Positions 10,330-21,287 of a DNA stretch of 64,000 nucleotides are shown piece after piece. Source of the stretch: Mesodorylaimus sp. YZB2_4 (Eukaryota; Nematoda; Enoplea; Dorylaimida; Dorylaimidae). How positions within the stretch are numbered: the first letter of the stretch is position 1; each line of letters opens with the position of its first letter. The stretch spans positions 248,001-312,000 of the forward strand of contig JASANH010000104.1 in the NCBI GenBank assembly GCA_030248295.1, read 5' to 3'. The notes beneath the pieces were generated by a model. It was not told the DNA's origin. It did not search any database and saw only the letters and a list, made by a program, of their open reading frames with translations. Position numbers and translations under genes: made by a program.

Positions 10330-11826
10330 ATGACCAGCCTTTCGTTTAAATTTTCGAAAACTACCAGGAAACAATTGAACATCGCCCAAGATTCCAAAGA
10401 TCTATCCAAACGGGATATCCAAAACGAAGACGATGAAGAAGATGGCGGGGCAAAGATCTCATCGGAACCTGTTCTAATTACAGGTTTCGATCGTAATGGT
10501 GTGCAAGAAGTTGGTAACGACAAGAACGGGAAGGAAGAGAAGAAAGAATTGGTCATACCCGCTTTGCAAAATACTATTCGACTTCCCATGTCCAATTCCG
10601 CGGCAGCCGAAGATGAAGATACCAGGGCGAAACGAATTCTGTTGGAGGAAGCGCAACGGCTAATCGATCATGCCAAAGAAGAAGTCCACGATACTTCAGT
10701 GATTCCCACTCAGGAAAAGAAGGAAGAGAAATTAGATATTTCTGCAATCATGACCGAAGATGCGGATTACGAATGTGTTTCCGTCGACGTGTTTGGGAAA
10801 GCTCTGTTACGAGGGATGGGCTGGAAAGAAGGCCTCGCGATTGGGCGATCTGGCAACAAAGCGGTGGCACCGATCGTCACTGCACCCCGTCCTAAAGGGC
10901 TCGGTTTGGGGGCTGAAATCAAACCGCCACCAGGAACATCGGCTTCGTCATCTGGACAACAAGGACCTGGCGAAAATGAAGATGCTTTGACGTTGAAAAT
11001 AGGCGCTTACGTCAAACGAACCGACGCAAAAAGTGATAAAGATCGATACGGAAAAGTGATTAGTTGGGACGAAGACAACGCTCGTATCGTGGTCCAAATG
11101 GCCATCGGAAGGACGACAGTTCGACTGAGTCAACACGTGGTTCGCGTTGTCTCGTATAAAGAGTACGAGAAAGCGAGCAAATGCATTAATCAGAGCGAAT
11201 ACGAAGAATTCAAGGCAATGGAGGAGAAGAAATATGGGAAACGGATTGATGAAATACCAAACGCTGAAGACATTTTCAAATTAGAGACGAAAAAGAAAAG
11301 CGACGATCGAGAAGACAAATCGAAGGACAAGAGTGTTAATAAACGAGATAGACACATCGATTCCCGCGACGAACGTTCATCATCGCATCATAAGGATCGA
11401 AGAAAAGACGAATCCAGCAAAAGCCGGGAACGTGATCGCAGTCGTTGTCCCAGCAAGTCAAACTCTAGAGGTTGGCTTCGCCCCGATATTCGAGTTCGAA
11501 TCGTCGATGAGAAATATCGGCGTGGAAAATTCTTTAAAACCAAGGTCGTGGTGGTCGACGTCAAATCAGCCGGCGTTTGTAGTTGTATGGCCGAGGACGG
11601 TAAGACCTTACTGGATGATCTGAAAGAAGACATGCTGGAGACTGTTGTCCCTCGCAAGAACGGTTCAGCTGTAATTATCGTCCGAGGATCGTACGCAGGA
11701 AAGATCGGCACTATCTTGGATCGTGATTCGCGTTCTTGTCTCGCTGTCGTTCAGTTAGCTGACGCAGTGAAGAACGTGTCATTCGATGATATATGTGAGT
11801 ATGTTGGTGAGGCACCTGATTATTGA
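10330..11826 (+). CDS. GPKOW: GPKOW, G-patch and KOW domain spliceosomal protein
   Basis: Nuclear RNA-binding protein of the spliceosome that works with the DHX16 helicase in vertebrates. Single exon, 498 residues from the Met at 10330 (ACAAAATGA context); the frame is open from an upstream Met at 10237, but the conserved family N terminus SLSFKFSK begins right after 10330. A G-patch spans about residues 143-195 (LLRGMGWKEGLAIG, then PRPKGLGLG). A first KOW motif lies near 225-255 (GAYVKRTD..RYGKVISWD), a charged Arg/Ser/Asp/Lys linker at about 310-385, and a second KOW near 448-480 (GSYAGKIGTILDRDSRSC). Length is close to the human protein. The stop is only 174 bp from the stop of the convergent Apaf-1 gene. 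Confidence 0.95.
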   Translation: MTSLSFKFSKTTRKQLNIAQDSKDLSKRDIQNEDDEEDGGAKISSEPVLITGFDRNGVQEVGNDKNGKEEKKELVIPALQNTIRLPMSNSAAAEDEDTRAKRILLEEAQRLIDHAKEEVHDTSVIPTQEKKEEKLDISAIMTEDADYECVSVDVFGKALLRGMGWKEGLAIGRSGNKAVAPIVTAPRPKGLGLGAEIKPPPGTSASSSGQQGPGENEDALTLKIGAYVKRTDAKSDKDRYGKVISWDEDNARIVVQMAIGRTTVRLSQHVVRVVSYKEYEKASKCINQSEYEEFKAMEEKKYGKRIDEIPNAEDIFKLETKKKSDDREDKSKDKSVNKRDRHIDSRDERSSSHHKDRRKDESSKSRERDRSRCPSKSNSRGWLRPDIRVRIVDEKYRRGKFFKTKVVVVDVKSAGVCSCMAEDGKTLLDDLKEDMLETVVPRKNGSAVIIVRGSYAGKIGTILDRDSRSCLAVVQLADAVKNVSFDDICEYVGEAPDY

Positions 11827-11999: not shown

Positions 12000-14900
12000 T
12001 CAAAGTTCGTCGATTTTGAATCTGCTGGCTTGCATATTCCAGACCTGAAACTGGCGAGATTGATAACCAGTCCGAGGCTATGATGAGCTTCTTACCTCAA
12101 CAATTCCATTTTGTCTGGAGACCAACAAGCGAGAGCCATCGGCGTGGAAGCGCAGTGAAGTAGTTGGCTGAGCACCAGAACGATTCTTGAACACTAATCG
12201 TGAGAATAACATTGGAGATTCCTTGGTCAAGGTCCAAAGCTATAAGAAACTTTAGTCAGGTAAACGCTGGCTGGATTGAAAATTCTGCCCTGGAAACGAG
12301 GATGAGCACCCCTAACATCTGCGCCTGTCTAGCCCTCATAAGGTTGTCATGAAGAGGATCAGATCAGCAATCAGAAGACTATCAAAAAGTTAAGCCCTGT
12401 GCGGGAATCGAACCCACACTTCTACTGACCCAGTGAGCAGTCCACCTCCACGTTGACGGACTCTACATGTCAATGAGTGGGTGGCTGCTGCCTGCATGTC
12501 AGCTAGTACACTGGCGACAGGTTCGATTCCCACTCAGGGCTAAAGTTTTTGTTATCTAGTACTCTCAACCCCACACGACAATCCAAGCCACTTACCACAA
12601 TCGACCCGTCGATCAATCCAGCCGCCACATACTTTCCACACCTGGACACATCCACGCACGTAACTGCCTTTTCCGCTTTCCATTCGAGCAGGAGTTCCCC
12701 ATCCCGAGACCACACGGCCAAATCGGCGAAACTGCTAGTCAAAATACAGTTGTAGAAGGCACCGGCATGAATCCAACAGCAGCTCGAAATCTGACGCGCC
12801 CCATGGCTGCCAAATTTGGCCATCTTGGTACAGCTGCTCGACCTCCAAATCATTCCCACCCCATCGTCGCCGACGCTAACCATATATTCGTCGTTGAGAC
12901 TGAACGCGCAGCAGTTTATCGATCCATTGTGTCCACACATAACTTCCGGTTTGGCCTCTCGATTCAACAAGTCCCATATTAGCAGACATCCATCGGCATC
13001 GCCCCCGATCGCTTTGGCACCGCTGTGAGATATCTCGCAGCACTGATATCGTCGACCAGGACAAGCTGGGTCGGAAAGAAGGGCGGGCTCCTCGCCTGGT
13101 TGACCCGACCCGCTCTCCGACCAAACAGCTAACAAGGGCGATGGTGTACGGAAGAATTCCTCGGACAGAGTAACAGCACTGATCGAATACGCATCCTGCT
13201 CCAACCACGGGTTCATATCCGGCAACGTGTAGATGAATAGGCCAGCCCCGCAACTGACCAATACTCGCTGGAAGTCGGACGAAACTGACATGTACTCGGC
13301 TGCGTGCTCCATTTGGATCTTCGAGTACTCTCTTCCCGAGTCACTACTCCAGACCTGAAAACAGACGGTAGGTCATAACTCTGCACTGGCACAACTGTTC
13401 TTTGTTAGGACTTATCTGGCCCTTACAGGGTTCATACAAGGAGCGGAAAATGATTTCCATAAATTTCCATGGTTTTCCAGGCAAATATTAGTTTCGTACT
13501 ATTTTCCCACTGTCCCAGCACTGCTAAACCAATTTCTAACCGATTTTCTGATTTCCATCATGATCAACAGGCGGGCGATTCAAAATTTTAGACCTCAAAA
13601 CGCAGTCTTACAGATTTCCATGATTTTGGCTCCGAAATTCTTATTTTTCCCGTCTTCTATGAACCCTGCCTTAATAGCTGCAGGTTCAGCAAGGTCCCAA
13701 TGCTTACCCTCAACGTTCCATCGGCGCATATACACGCAAAGGCGCTCCCGTAACCATTATTAGACCACACTGCCTGGATCGCCGTAGTCGGGCAAATTGC
13801 CAGCGAGATCGCAGGATATCTGGCGCTGGAATGTTCCCCGTTTTCCACAGCTCTATAAACGACCAGTATTTCATGCCGATAGCCAAACACATCGCTACTC
13901 ACCTTGGCTCAGCAAAAAGTAGTTCCTTATTCATTTCGCTCGCCCTTCGATGCACAGCAGACGAGGATGGTTCGTCGAATGCCAATTGTAGTATCTCAAC
14001 GAATTCTCGAACTGGGCGTCTATTATCGTTCAACAAATGCATATTTTTTCTAATAAATGTCTGGAAATCGCGGTGCGCAATCTCGTCCTAAAAAGCGTCG
14101 TATCAGAAACGGCACTCTAACTCAAATTTATTCTTACCTTTTGGCTAATGTAGTGTCCGTAATGTCTATAATCGGTCAGTGCCTGTACAGGCCCGCACAC
14201 GCACAGCTTCGCAGCAACGAAGTCCAAATCGAGGAATATTTCCCAATGGGCGTTTACATCTCCAGAACGGAACAAATGGTAGGCCAAGTATGCGTGGATG
14301 TATCCGTCTTGAGGTAAACGATTCCACTCGCCATTCGCCTGGGACAAATAGCGATCGAGTAGTTTCTTGTGCAGATTCTGAAAAAAGCAGTCTTCATCAG
14401 TTATTCCATAAAACTTCACATTTTGTTAATCGTCGGATACCTTCTGTTTTTCTGGTCCATTCAAGATCTTGATGGTCTCCTGCAAGAGTACGTGAATGCG
14501 ATACGACTGCCTTAATCCGGCCACAGCAGAGTGACGTCTCTCGACCAAAGAGCGTTTAATGAACACTGACATCAGGTCCTCCACTTCGGTCATCGACTTG
14601 TCCCAGTAGACGATCAATGCCTGAAACAAAGTAACCTGCTGAGTGCACAATTACTGTAGATGCGACCCGTATTTTTAATATTGTGCGATAGCCAGGTCAA
14701 CAAACAGCGACAATGGTAATATGGTGCACCACCACGATTTGCACCATATTACCAGTGTCGCTTGCTTGTTGGTAGGATCAAACGATCATTGAAATATTGA
14801 TGAGACTGCTATCCGCGGATTTCGACCGCTGACCATCACTAATAACCCTAGCACTAAATGTTCTATGAACTAAACTTTCCTAAATGAGCTCTACAGTATG

Positions 14901-16434
14901 AGTATCCTTTGCAGCTCTATATGCAATAACATTCCAAGTCAGAGGGCACACCCGACGGAGTTGCCTTGTAAGGCCAGGAAACACCCCATAAGCATAATCC
15001 TGTTCCCAAAAACCAACACGTACTTTTATCGGGATCTCAACACCACGCTGAAACACGCCCAGACTCCTAAACAATACAGCCATCTCGTCTTCCAAGTTAT
15101 CCAAACTGAGACCCGCTGCCGCCACGAAGTTGTTGAATCTGTACGACGTCCGTTTCTGAATCTCGGCCAGTTTCCGAGCTCGGAGCATTTCGAAGTAGTG
15201 AGTCCACCTGAAACGCAGAGTCTTGCCAAAAGGGCACTCTTATCGACGGACATCTCACCTGTTCGGGTGCTCCTTCAGCAATGATGCAATCAAGGAAATC
15301 TCGAATGGATGCCCTTGGCACTGCTGATAGATTTTTGCCGCCTCGGCAGGTAAAGCGGAAGCGTTGACGTGCAACCAGATGCAGAATGCTTCCATCGCCT
15401 CGGCAAGCGTGAATCCCGAATCAGGCACGTGCACGAAATCCTTCGTTCCATTAATGACATCGAACAGTTCAGTTTTTCTCACCGTCGCCATAATACGGCA
15501 GCCAATACCATCGAAAGCGTGGATGACATTTTCCGTCCACACGTCATCGAGGATAACCAACGATTTTGGGAAATCATGAAGAAAAATATCCTTCAGCGCC
15601 TCTTTGGCTTGATTGACTCGATCGAATGTCAATCTTCGTTCCGTCATGTCCACTTTCGAAAAAAGATCACTAAGCGTTGTCAACAGCTTATCCTCGCCAT
15701 GCGGTCCCACATTGAGCCAATACACATTGGTGAACGTAGCGCCAGTGATGCTAGGATCTACGAGAGCTGAAGCGGCCAAGACCGACTTACCAATTCCGCC
15801 CATACCTGAAAGTACGGCACTGGTAGCAAGCATGAATCTCGGTGACCGACTCGAGCACGCTTACCATGAATAATCACCCATCCATCATTATCCGCACTGG
15901 ACACATTCAGTAAGGCTTGACGGATCTCTTCCAATAGAAGACGTCGTTCCACATAGACGTCCGGTAACGCAGGTACGGCGCCCTTGGACAAAGCCGTCTT
16001 TACCATTCGCCTGGCAGTCGTTGGTGAACGAGGAACCGTGTCGGCAGCAGCCACCGTTAATTCGCTGATGAGATTAGAATAACATGCGCGACGAAGAGCT
16101 TCGATCAACGGCTCTAACGACGTGGCTTTTCGTGCATAGACGCGCAGCAATTCGCGAACAGCTTCAGCCGGCGGCCGCTCTTCTGAAACAAGAACTCAGA
16201 AGCAGATTTTGGCGACCACTTCAGACGAACAATCAAAGTGATCGGAAAACCCCCCTACAGCTTGATTACATAGATGCACATACTGCTTATCTTGAGGATC
16301 AACTCAGCATCGTTTGGTGACAAAACGCGCTCCGAAATCAGATGCTCCAAGAATGGCGGCTCGGTCGGCAATAAACACTGGGCAATCTCCGCTCGGGCGC
16401 GATTCAACGTCTCGAGCTCTTCTTGCCGCATCAT
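12000..16434 (-). CDS. APAF1: Apaf-1/CED-4 homologue, apoptosome scaffold (CARD, NB-ARC, WD40)
   Basis: Cytosolic adaptor that oligomerises into the apoptosome and recruits initiator caspase through its CARD. Eleven exons with matching phases: 16434-16284, 16182-15865, 15805-15259, 15207-15024, 14620-14441, 14377-14138, 14087-13903, 13852-13708, 13354-12596, 12239-12096, 12044-12000, giving 965 residues. CARD about 1-90 (MMRQEELETLNRAR start). NB-ARC: P-loop GMGGIGKS at 157-164, Walker B SLVILDDVW at 238-246, then the winged-helix part (VYWDKSMTEVEDLM). From about residue 600 come WD40 repeats (GGDADGCLLIWD, SVGDDGVGMIWR, DGSRLLVSRQNGIVEVWN). The repeat region is shorter than in human APAF1 (1248 residues). 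The WD40 domain separates it from nematode CED-4, which has none. Its start faces the Bcl-2 homologue 478 bp away. Intron 9 carries a tRNA-like inverted pair and intron 4 a hairpin element. Confidence 0.94.
12392..12545. repeat. Inverted pair of tRNA 3'-half-like sequences
   Basis: Both ends end in a tRNA-like T-arm with a B-box GGTTCGATTCC and an AGCCCTG / CAGGGCT acceptor-like arm, arranged as an inverted repeat around about 110 bp. It lies in an Apaf-1 intron. A related, more diverged structure is at 47965-48061. It looks like a mobile tRNA-derived element rather than a working tRNA gene, as neither half has a complete cloverleaf. Confidence 0.6.
14694..14778. repeat. Hairpin (MITE-like) inverted repeat in Apaf-1 intron
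   Basis: Arms of about 22 bp (GCGACAATGGTAATATGGTG and its complement, one mismatch) flank a loop of about 11 nt. Imperfect similarity extends outward (CAACAAACAGCGAC against the complement of GTCGCTTGCTTGTTGG). No protein is encoded. Probably a small nonautonomous element inside the intron at 15023-14621. Confidence 0.6.
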
Positions 16435-16912
16435 TATCAGTTGTTTATGAAGAATTCTATTCCCATCCAGGCCAAGAATAGGAAAAACAGCACAACGGGC
16501 ACACTGGCAGGCACGAGTAATAAGTAGTATTCAATAGTTGACTCGAAGACGTCAAGCATAATCTTGATAGTGGTCAATCAATATACATGATAAAGACGAT
16601 CAAATTATACAACCAGAAACGTTTCCAAGTCCACCGAAAATGTCTCATGCGTCACACGTACAAAAAATCTGAGACTACAGTACTACTCTGCAGTACGTAC
16701 GTAGTGTCCATGCTAGTGTCTGCATTGAAATACCGGCGCCTTCCAGCAGACAAACACTAATATTGTCATTAGAGGCTTGTATTTTTCAAAGTGTGCGGCG
16801 GTCTTTGTAGCGGCTGATTTGCATGGATGACGTCAGTCGCCCTGTTTACTCTCTCGGAGGTAACACGGGATGAGAGTTTTCGTGTAATCTTTTTGTTTTA
16901 CCATCCATAAAA
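16435..16912. promoter_or_regulatory. Shared divergent promoter region of Apaf-1 and Bcl-2 homologues
   Basis: 478 bp lie between the two start codons, so both transcription starts must fall here unless unseen 5' exons exist. It contains an octamer-like ATTTGCAT at 16817-16824 and a perfect CRE palindrome TGACGTCA at 16828-16835. No convincing TATA box was seen. Confidence 0.6.
16828..16835. promoter_or_regulatory. CRE palindrome TGACGTCA
   Basis: Perfect consensus for CREB/ATF dimers, 78 bp upstream of the Bcl-2 start codon and about 395 bp from the Apaf-1 start. CREB control of mammalian BCL2 through a CRE is known; whether this site works is inference. Confidence 0.5.
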
Positions 16913-18502
16913 ATGGTGATAGAACATCAAATCACCGCTGATCGCGTGGAGGTGAATAACGAAGCCAAACTGCTGGCTCTGGATTACATTTATTATCGTC
17001 TCTCAAAATCTGGGTACCCTTGGTACAACCATCCCGTCCTAGCTGAGCCGCAACATGTGAATTTGGTTATGCGAGAATTAGGCGATGAATTCGAAAAGCG
17101 TTATTCTGAGACATATGGTGAAATGAGTTCACTCTTGAATCTCGCAATGACCACAACGTACGTTAATTTCGCCGCTGTCTGCGATGAATTGTTTCGGGGA
17201 GAAGATTATTACAAAGGTAGGCCTCTGATCTGTTGTCTACTCCGTACGTTCTAGCTGTCACTTTCGTGTTTCGTCACTCGCTCATCTTCAGTTTTTGGCC
17301 ATTATAGGTAGTGTCTTCCGTTAGGCTTCTGCATGTGCCGTCCGTCAAGCGTGTCAGCATGCTGCGCGCTGGCGCACTTGGACTCATGGCACAAGTCCAA
17401 CTGCGCCGCAGCTTATGACTCATTGACAAAATCTGCGGGGTCTGTATAGACAGTCTCGAGAAAAGGTTTTTTTTTTTTAAAAACTACACCACTCTGAAAG
17501 CAAGAGTAGCGCCACCTATTTTCCAGTAGGTACCCAACAAGCATTTTGAATAGGTCTTTGCTTCGTCCTTTCCTCTACAGCGAATCGCCATTATTTCTCT
17601 TTCGCGCAGCATATATCAAAGATCAATTTTTGTGCTTACCTATTATGTACCATTTCCTCGTTATTATCAACACCATCCAATATCTCCCATGGTTGGGGAT
17701 GGGGTGTCTTACGAGATTTCAAGACCTAGGCTAGTGGGACCAGAGACCATTAAGGTTTTCTACCCGAAAGTACATATGCTTAGGACAGTTCCACAAATTG
17801 ACGTCCTACATGAATGTTCATATAGGCATTGTATTTTGCCCTATAGTTCATGCTTTTATCGTTCTTTTTAAATGTGTTGCTGTAGACTCCAAATTTTGGT
17901 TGAATAAGCAGACTGAGGAAGAAAGCATAAGCAGCAAAATTCTGAACAGGCATAAGTTTTTCTCCCAGTCTCTCGCTGGCGTTGCGTAGAATTTTATTTT
18001 CTTCACCGGATTTTTTGGATTTTTCAGTCGATGGTCGCATATCGATCAAATGGAGTCGAATCGTGGCCTTGTTCGTCTTCGGAGGCCTACTTGCAATTGA
18101 GTGCGTCAGAAATGGTTTGGAAGATCGGATATCGGACATTGCAGACTGGATCTACATTTATATTCGAAGTCGGTTATCGTACTGGATTTGTAAACACGGC
18201 GGTTGGGTAAGCATTCTCTTTAGTGAGCTCCCGCTCGAGTCGAGTATGCTGTCTTATCGTTATTAGATTGCCCTGCAGATGTCTTATTTGACTTTCCTTT
18301 ACGTCTATCCTCCAGCATGGATTATAGGGTGTTTAAAGGCCCATGCTAAAGATTTTTTGCTTTTAAGGATGGCTTGATCAAATTCTACGAAATGCGTGAA
18401 ACTAACCAAACGTGGGACTCGATCAAAACGACAATGACTACAGTCGGAGCCGCAATGGGTGTAGTTGCTTTAGCAGTCCTTGTGGCGAATCGTCTTTATT
18501 GA
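16913..18502 (+). CDS. Bcl-2/CED-9 homologue, probably anti-apoptotic
   Basis: Membrane-anchored regulator of mitochondrial apoptosis. Three exons, 16913-17216, 18028-18206 and 18368-18502, join in phase to give 205 residues. BH4-like helix at about 17-37 (LLALDYIYYRLSKSGYPW, very like BCL-2/BCL-XL); BH3 at about 51-64 (LVMRELGDEFEKRY, with the diagnostic L and GD); BH1 at about 107-121 (WSRIVALFVFGG); BH2 spanning the exon 2/3 junction (WICKHGGWDGLIKF), where the family's conserved intron cuts after the tryptophan of GGW; C-terminal membrane anchor 186-203 followed by NRLY. All four BH motifs and a BH4 suggest the protective class. The BH1 signature NWGR reads KWSR, and about ten residues are inserted between ELF and it. 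Start context AAAAATGG. AATAAA is at 18673. Confidence 0.94.
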
Positions 18503-20036: not shown

Positions 20037-20318
20037 GTTTGGCATTGCGGGTAACGTTTGAATCCTTGGAAAGTCAGCCACTGCGGGATATATGTACAAT
20101 AATTACCCGAGCTAAACCTCACGAAAGGTACCCTCTAGTGCGGAATAATGAGCGTGATGACAGAAATAAGTATGATTACGAATCAGGGGTCTCAAAGGAT
20201 ACAGAACATATTAAATGCTTAAGCGAAAGCAAAGATCGCCAGAAGAGCCAAGCTCATACGAAGGCTGTGCTACATTGTTTGGCTTCTTACAGCACCGTAC
20301 ATCACTCGTGACAAGACT

Positions 20319-21287
20319 ATGGCAAGCAATTTTACAAGCGACCTGCTGCAGCCGTTCAACATATACATCTGGCCTGCAAGCATTACTTTCATCTTCGGTG
20401 GCATGGCCACCATATTTGGGAATGTGATGATCGTGATAGCATTAATCAAGACCCCTCATCTAAAGAAGAATCGGTGCAATATATTCGTCGGTAATCTGGC
20501 CTTGGCAGACGCCATTTCGGGAGCATCGTTTATCGTTTGCGCCGTAAATGGTCTGTACGCCACTAGCAAGGGGCTGGCATCAGTGGCCGTGTCCAATGAA
20601 ATGTGTTTCTATATGAATATCCCATTCATACTCTCCTTCGATGCTGGATCGCTGATGGTGCTGGCCATCGGTGTCGATCGCATGGTCTCCTTGTGGTGGC
20701 CCATGTTTTACAAGAATCTTTCCAAAACTTATGTGATCGCTGTCAACGCCCTGTCCTGGGTCTTTGGCGGGGTGAATTTGATTTTAGGTTTTATTTACAA
20801 GGATCCCAATGAGATCGTCCCATCATGCGCATTACCAACGTCCATGCGCAGTGTTTCATTGGCGTTTTGGAATGACTCCAACATTGTCATCAATGTGTTG
20901 GTCGTAGCCTGCTATGCTAGCGCGTATCGAAGGGCCAAGTCGTTAGCCAAGGTTCGGTCGAGCAACAATGATCAGATATTGCGCAATAATCGATTACTGA
21001 CCTCGCTGATCATATGTGTATCGATTTATATAGTGGGATGGATGGTCACCATGCTGGTCATATTTTTGGTCAACATCGCTGCAGCGCCACCCACAGTCAT
21101 TTTTCACTGTTCCCTGTATGTGGGAATACTGGCCAATATAAACGTAGGCTGCAATTTTTATGTGTATTATGCCCGCAGCGAAGAATATCGGAAAGCTTTC
21201 AGGGGATTATTTGGTGTATCAGGGGGTGAAGCTGTCACAGGCAAGTCTGTTAAATCTGTTGCAGTTACACCAGTCGCACTCCCTTGA
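20319..21287 (+). CDS. Rhodopsin-like seven-helix receptor, srsx-like
   Basis: Cell-surface G-protein-coupled receptor of unknown ligand. Intronless, 322 residues, seven hydrophobic helices. Helix 1 has GN at 34-35, helix 2 LALADA with Asp 64. Cys 96 (top of helix 3) and Cys 170 (second extracellular loop) would form the class-A disulfide. The DRY position is DRM at 120-122. Helix 7 reads NVGCNFYVYY (276-284) in place of NPxxY, and helix 6 lacks CWxP. Asn 4 is in an N-glycosylation sequon. This pattern and the missing introns resemble the divergent srsx-type chemoreceptor branch or other orphan class-A receptors. A recent retrocopy is possible. No paralogue is seen in the window. Confidence 0.85.
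   Translation: MASNFTSDLLQPFNIYIWPASITFIFGGMATIFGNVMIVIALIKTPHLKKNRCNIFVGNLALADAISGASFIVCAVNGLYATSKGLASVAVSNEMCFYMNIPFILSFDAGSLMVLAIGVDRMVSLWWPMFYKNLSKTYVIAVNALSWVFGGVNLILGFIYKDPNEIVPSCALPTSMRSVSLAFWNDSNIVINVLVVACYASAYRRAKSLAKVRSSNNDQILRNNRLLTSLIICVSIYIVGWMVTMLVIFLVNIAAAPPTVIFHCSLYVGILANINVGCNFYVYYARSEEYRKAFRGLFGVSGGEAVTGKSVKSVAVTPVALP

Follow-up and report, generated by a model that had tools for sequence, protein, structure and literature searches.

Apaf-1 and Bcl-2 family genes lie head to head around a PIG-Y reading frame in a dorylaimid nematode genome

In a 64-kb window of the genome of the nematode Mesodorylaimus sp. YZB2_4 (64,000 nt; contig JASANH010000104.1, positions 248,001 to 312,000; coordinates below are those of this window), homologues of the apoptosome scaffold Apaf-1 and of Bcl-2 start back to back, with a small reading frame of the PIG-Y family lying between them. 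Exactly 478 bp separate the Apaf-1 start codon (16434, minus strand) from that of Bcl-2 (16913, plus strand). An earlier sequence-only reading of this DNA had described a divergent Apaf-1/Bcl-2 pair with this spacing; the identities and coordinates of both genes were borne out by spliced models, Pfam and solved-structure matches, and the divergent starts by the ATG positions. That reading had also taken the entire 478 bp as one promoter region shared by the two genes, and of this the spacing stood but the description did not. The PIG-Y frame (16559..16437, minus strand) occupies 123 nt of the gap on the Apaf-1 strand, so that the gap is partly coding and 353 bp of non-coding DNA (16560..16912) are left between the PIG-Y and Bcl-2 ATGs as a candidate bidirectional promoter. 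Since Bcl-2 directly faces PIG-Y and Apaf-1 lies behind it, a promoter shared by Apaf-1 and Bcl-2 is an inexact description. Measured from ATG to ATG, PIG-Y/Bcl-2 as well as Apaf-1/Bcl-2 are head-to-head neighbors at less than 1 kb. The linkage was seen in one assembly of 145 Mb, where it is contained well inside a single 911-kb contig; the DNA of the gap has one match in this assembly, and the stretch carrying the gene pair has no run of N.

The Apaf-1 and Bcl-2 gene models were rebuilt from splice sites. For the Apaf-1/CED-4-family gene (16434..12000, minus strand) this gave 11 coding exons (16434-16284, 16182-15865, 15805-15259, 15207-15024, 14620-14441, 14377-14138, 14087-13903, 13852-13708, 13354-12596, 12239-12096, and 12044-12000), with 10 introns that are all GT-AG and 965 codons without an internal stop. 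Pfam matched NB-ARC (5e-27), APAF1_C (1.3e-24), WD40 (2e-15), a winged helix (2.4e-9), and CARD (1.9e-5) in the 965-residue product. The CARD is N-terminal and scored 25.0 bits against a cut-off of 23.9, and the start of the protein is in register with that of Trichuris in the alignment. Membership of the Apaf-1/CED-4 family follows from the NB-ARC with its P-loop, the winged helix, and APAF1_C, with GMGGIGKS and ILDDVW aligned to the homologues; the CARD, GMGGIGKS P-loop, and WD40 named in the sequence-only reading were all recovered by Pfam and the homologue alignment. In a search of solved structures (PDB) the six best entries were Apaf-1 (best E = 6.7e-93) and the seventh was CED-4 (2.9e-16), and Apaf-1 is the single NB-ARC match in the whole assembly. 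The best-scoring named homologues, with 7996 candidates scored, were from Trichuris muris (34% identity over 99%) and Trichinella murrelli (30%). Aligned with five homologues (P0001-P0005), the protein tracks those of Trichuris and Trichinella from domain to domain, and an RTPSPLL-type insertion is common to all of these. The clade I CED-4/APAF-1 proteins of these two genera (Young et al. 2020, PMC7456325) likewise combine CARD, NB-ARC, WHD, APAF1_C, and WD40. Inverted-repeat stretches in the Apaf-1 introns, at 12403-12541 and about 14690-14775, resemble small transposable elements by eye.

The WD40 region sets this Apaf-1 apart. Its sequence (residues about 600-965; exons in 12000-13852) suffices for one propeller and falls short of the 15 or so repeats of a 7-blade plus an 8-blade propeller. 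In the five-homologue alignment, the C-terminus falls where the first half of the Trichuris/Trichinella WD40 region stops. When the five homologues were compared with the window by tblastn, all matches at E<0.05 fell within 12000-16435, and the known WD40 exon was the only match in the window to a model of the second WD40 half. An extension of the gene past 12000 into a second propeller was considered and set aside, as the window has no WD40 frame beyond these limits at that threshold and the stop lies 173 bp from that of the convergent GPKOW gene. WD repeats are mutually similar, and the claim is therefore limited to one propeller's worth of sequence, not to which of the two propellers it represents. 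The same passages of Young et al. 2020 (PMC7456325) assign 15-17 WD40 repeats to clade I nematode Apaf-1, against one propeller's worth here, and none to the remaining nematodes of that study. The 8-blade propeller is the main contact of cytochrome c in the human apoptosome, according to the portion of PMC5050015 that deals with it; with one propeller here, the protein is unlikely to sense cytochrome c as its human counterpart does. A genome-wide search for CARD proteins gave no match at E<=0.001; it also missed the split CARD of the window's own gene and is hence uninformative.

The PIG-Y frame consists of 40 codons and TGA (MLDVFESTIEYYLLLVPASVPVVLFFLFLAWMGIEFFINN). It matches PF15159 at 2e-7 (32.1 bits, over the curated cut-off of 25; profile positions 40-67 of 69), which places it in the PIG-Y family as a possibly shortened member. 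Among the controls, one reversed and nine shuffled versions of the frame, none of the ten matched any Pfam family. When the PIG-Y model was run against the 145-Mb assembly (2 candidates scored), the only match at E<=1 was the frame in the gap. PIG-Y is a subunit of the glycosylphosphatidylinositol (GPI)-N-acetylglucosamine transferase; its catalytic partner PIG-A has two exon matches side by side on contig C136, so the GPI pathway seems present. No solved structure in the PDB matched the frame at E<=10, a result that leaves the assignment as it was. The gap frame is very probably PIG-Y; it may be a PIG-Y that still works although shortened, a remnant, or an upstream frame with a regulatory role for Apaf-1. 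We looked for an upstream first exon in three extended versions: six additional in-frame upstream residues raised the score by 0.2 to 32.3 bits, and two versions lost score, namely a spliced candidate (30.9 bits) and a join to a hydrophobic 24-codon frame just upstream, which is out of frame (26.3 bits, with X at the join). The candidates were rejected.

At the other end of the frame, the PIG-Y stop lies 2 nt (16435..16436, minus strand) ahead of the Apaf-1 ATG, and stops of one frame overlap starts of the other in TGATAATGATG. Read in the PIG-Y frame, the junction is TGA TAA TGA, which overlaps the ATGATG start of Apaf-1. The 2-nt space itself contains no AG acceptor.

The Bcl-2 gene on the plus strand has 3 exons and encodes 205 amino acids, with a Pfam Bcl-2 match of 8.4e-26. 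In terms of the Bcl-2 homology (BH) regions, exon 1 (16913-17216) holds the BH4-side helix, the BH3 region, and the start of an insertion between helices alpha4 and alpha5. Exon 2 (18028-18206) carries BH1 and BH2 up to GGW, and exon 3 (18368-18502) the C-terminal hydrophobic tail and the stop at 18502. Among solved structures the protein matched Bcl-xL and Bcl-2 best, with residues 19-168 of the query covered by the alignment. With a BH4-side helix, BH3, BH1, and BH2 regions and a tail all present, the multi-BH identity given in the sequence-only reading was upheld by Pfam, structure alignment, and tail. From the end of helix 4 to BH1, at the alpha4-alpha5 junction, the protein is 10 residues longer than Bcl-xL, and it exceeds the paralogues on contigs C80 and C2 there by 5 residues. 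The exon 1/2 intron interrupts the insertion (17190-18060). Extra alpha4-alpha5 residues are a CED-9-type trait: the passages of PMC7456325 on this region give C. elegans CED-9 4 extra residues at the junction, which enable CED-4 release, against 10 relative to Bcl-xL here. The same passages describe Trichuris suis A as lacking an alpha4-alpha5 loop and clade I as shorter there than other clades. A relative of the window protein (P0121; 65% identity over 45% of the query) shares GEDYYK at the exon-1 end of the insertion.

This Bcl-2 gene has company. A profile search of the genome gave 32 matches, of which 7 reached at least 49 bits; these lie on C80, C82, C2, C217 (two), C29 (the window gene), and C546. 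The C546 locus (L008) nearly copies one of the C217 loci (L005) by eye, and one of the pair has a stop in the matched frame, which suggests an uncollapsed haplotype or a recent duplicate. If C546 is indeed a copy of C217, the genome would hold about six cellular Bcl-2 genes, unlike C. elegans, which has one Bcl-2-type gene. In an alignment covering four of the seven strong loci (the two C217 loci and C546 were left out), identity to the window protein was 44% for C80, 39% for C2, and 28% for C82. The C80 paralogue, with 109 bits in one exon, outscores the spliced window protein at 90.9 bits. The window gene had been cast as the restrainer of the apoptosome; it is a Bcl-2 family member, but it is one among several paralogues and not the highest-scoring one.

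Some further Bcl-2-related loci were observed. The C82 locus (L003; G000:C82:57738-58037) is a divergent Bcl-2-family gene with BCL2-like 10, then Mcl-1, as best structures. The 25 weaker Bcl-2-domain frames (26.5-37.7 bits) are on 25 different contigs (among them C475, C540, C889, C14, C457, and C566; L009, L021, and L022); 13 are above the cut-off, their open frames measure 91-227 aa, and two have an in-frame stop. On C475, some 4.3 kb separate the weak frame from a frame whose DNA_pol_B_2 match (2.4e-5) narrowly misses the cut-off; another frame close by has no significant Pfam match and ends in a GGFLPMLLAPVL-type segment, typical of Maverick/adintovirus-like elements. A virus-like element of this nematode may carry a Bcl-2 gene. 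Two caspase-domain frames (L010 and L011, on G000:C144) are on the same strand about 3 kb apart, and more caspase matches are on C30, C242, and C179.

We considered how these three frames might be expressed together. One bidirectional promoter in the 353-bp gap would drive Bcl-2 rightwards and PIG-Y/Apaf-1 leftwards. The leftward transcript would be a bicistronic mRNA, with the 40-codon PIG-Y as its first frame and Apaf-1 as its second. Translation of Apaf-1 would then depend on leaky scanning or on stop-start reinitiation at TGATAATGATG; alternatively, its transcription could start from a site within the PIG-Y frame. Apaf-1 would then oligomerize via its NB-ARC and recruit a CARD procaspase, as its family does, while the Bcl-2 protein would attach to membranes through its tail and may hold Apaf-1 in the way known for CED-9 and CED-4, and PIG-Y would serve GPI-anchor synthesis. 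In favor of this explanation are the gene models with their domains, the PIG-Y score with its clean controls and the presence of PIG-A, the 2-nt spacing with overlapping stop and start and no AG acceptor, the human PYURF-PIGY transcript as a precedent for a bicistronic PIG-Y, the single NB-ARC match, and the alpha4-alpha5 insertion of the Bcl-2 protein. A shared promoter and a bicistronic mRNA are plausible but unproven, and we give the combination of the two even confidence as an explanation of the locus. The bicistronic PIG-Y/Apaf-1 mRNA, as predicted from the layout of the frames, is held tentatively, at a little under even confidence, and it appears rather doubtful that Apaf-1 and Bcl-2 are co-regulated in a way that matters functionally; the latter is a matter of inference, as Bcl-2 is one of several paralogues and neighboring gaps are equally short.

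A number of observations weigh against this shared-promoter explanation. The PIG-Y frame is not a full-length PIG-Y, since its 40 residues cover the second half of the profile and the N-terminal membrane segment is absent. The 353-bp gap has an observed/expected CpG ratio of 1.11, a value reached by 33% of 353-bp windows, and gives no CpG-island signal; a CpG-type promoter was accordingly set aside. Two motifs in the gap, an octamer ATGCAAAT (16817..16824, minus strand) and a palindrome TGACGTCA (16828..16835), lie 3 bp apart and were both noticed post hoc; they correspond to a POU-type and a CRE/ATF consensus, respectively. Their counts are near chance, with five copies of the octamer in the window against 4.1 expected (not significant), and the palindrome as a sole copy in the 64 kb against 1.23 expected (a weak signal). 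Two AGs within the PIG-Y frame (exon start 16503 or 16456) are possible acceptors that would give Apaf-1 a separate 5' end, and 2 nt is very short for classical reinitiation. Short gaps are moreover ordinary nearby, and the roughly six cellular Bcl-2 loci make a linked Bcl-2 less special. Separately, with regard to a trans-spliced operon, models of the spliced leaders SL1 and SL2 had no match among the candidates scored (50 of 31302 and 48 of 11514, respectively), and no Rfam family reached its gathering score in the window. A scan for bacterial-type promoters (4 found, 1.2 expected) was discarded as inapplicable to an animal.

It is quite possible that the genes are chance neighbors in a compact stretch, brought together by rearrangement and regulated separately, so that the pairing of a death gene with a survival gene is meaningless. 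Tight spacing seems to be the local custom: a distance of 560 bp separates the ATGs of a 430-aa frame and GPKOW, and one of 173 bp the stops of GPKOW and Apaf-1. Such a reading also draws on the near-chance motif counts and on the several Bcl-2 loci, which raise the odds of such a pairing. With six loci and 15,000 genes (assumed, not measured), those odds amount to 2 x 6 / 15,000, or about 0.08% per gene, which would eventually be met across many windows and gene pairs. A head-to-head arrangement over a 353-bp non-coding gap, involving the single NB-ARC and PIG-Y matches of the assembly, is more notable than a random pair would be, but this was judged post hoc.

We consider it unlikely that the PIG-Y frame does not work as a gene and is instead a remnant, or an upstream frame that controls Apaf-1 translation, with Apaf-1 and Bcl-2 sharing the gap. 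The frame has just 40 codons matching half the profile, and the hydrophobic frame upstream is out of frame and cut the score to 26.3 bits on joining; yet the frame is intact and over the family cut-off, and it is the sole PIG-Y match in an assembly in which PIG-A is present. An ancient linkage, kept as one regulatory block in this lineage or across clade I, is less probable again. The location of ced-4 and ced-9 on one C. elegans chromosome, although at a distance, and the existence in another source of an orthologous Bcl-2 exon (P0121) are compatible with it, but 'synten' has 0 occurrences in the main text of Young et al. 2020. It is very improbable that unlinked loci were falsely joined in the gap during assembly: the linkage comes from one assembly, which has near-duplicate contigs at another locus (C217/C546), but the single match of the gap DNA and its position in the interior of a 911-kb contig argue against it, as do the intact PIG-Y abutting Apaf-1 on one side and the absence of N runs.

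Among the neighboring genes, a GPKOW homologue (10330..11826, plus strand; Pfam GPKOW_C 1e-33 and G-patch_2 7.6e-18) converges with Apaf-1. The 430-aa frame, which has no Pfam match, starts at ATG 9769 on the minus strand and diverges from GPKOW (10330, plus strand). A GPCR gene of the Srsx type (20313..21287, plus strand; Pfam 7.5e-44), a nematode chemoreceptor family, lies on the Bcl-2 side. Elsewhere in the assembly, a contig of nuclear size contains a long COX1 frame (G000:C73:253316-254668, L017) that reads through under the invertebrate mitochondrial code and may be a nuclear copy. With 14 further COX1 matches elsewhere, either nuclear copies of mitochondrial DNA or a mitochondrial piece that was misjoined seem to be present. 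Among the 120 matches listed for this frame (7998 scored), the nearest named ones are Xiphinema rivesi (81%), Xiphinema pachtaicum (76%), and, at 80% each, Paralongidorus litoralis and Longidorus vineacola; further named matches listed, mostly insects, are at 62-65%, and metagenomic ones reach 84%. This COX1 puts the animal nearest to Dorylaimida, within clade I of the nematodes, and it is most likely a dorylaimid of another genus than these. A tardigrade origin was considered and rejected, since Apaf-1, the Srsx receptor, and COX1 point to a dorylaimid nematode.

The arrangement had been called undescribed in animals, and this view stands insofar as no description of it was found in the literature searched, the coverage of which is incomplete. 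Neither an Apaf-1/Bcl-2 nor a PIG-Y/Apaf-1 neighbor pair was found there, most subscription literature being outside that coverage. The C. elegans genes ced-4 and ced-9 are both on chromosome III but at a great distance from each other, and ced-9 is in an operon with the unrelated membrane-protein gene cyt-1, a point not confirmed in the literature searched. Human APAF1 is arranged head to head with IKBIP, which, unlike the partner in the window, does not encode a Bcl-2 protein, and no PIG-Y is known to lie between the two. IKBIP (IKIP) is described as a p53-regulated pro-apoptotic gene adjoining APAF1 (Hofer-Warbinek 2004, as cited in PMC10047260 and PMC11197280). A PIG-Y frame beside a second frame is a likeness to human PYURF-PIGY, a bicistronic PIG-Y transcript according to the passage on it in PMC13303939; the partner frame is PYURF in that transcript and Apaf-1 in the window, where PIG-Y comes first in the would-be common mRNA. 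An intron-blind search of the Mesodorylaimus genome for Trm112p gave no match at E<=0.001. PYURF is Trm112-like. The families themselves are known; new variants of them, as far as we could see, are their arrangement here, an Apaf-1 with one propeller, and a clade I Bcl-2 with a long loop.

One might go further and view the locus as a death-control module, in which a 353-bp bidirectional promoter serves a CED-9-like Bcl-2 on one side and a bicistronic PIG-Y/Apaf-1 mRNA on the other, PIG-Y translation meters Apaf-1, and an Apaf-1 that lost one propeller, together with human-manner cytochrome c sensing, is held directly by a long-loop Bcl-2, as a step between the Apaf-1 and CED-4 modes. Taken as a whole, this is speculative and probably does not hold in full. 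If the promoter is shared, a single DNA element would determine how much apoptosome scaffold there is relative to Bcl-2 protein, and we know of no animal in which this is the case. Young et al. 2020, in the passages discussed above, raised the question of how the C. elegans pathway, with no WD40 and a direct CED-9/CED-4 contact, arose from a two-propeller pathway, and a one-propeller Apaf-1 together with a long-looped Bcl-2 in clade I would help to order the origin of that pathway.

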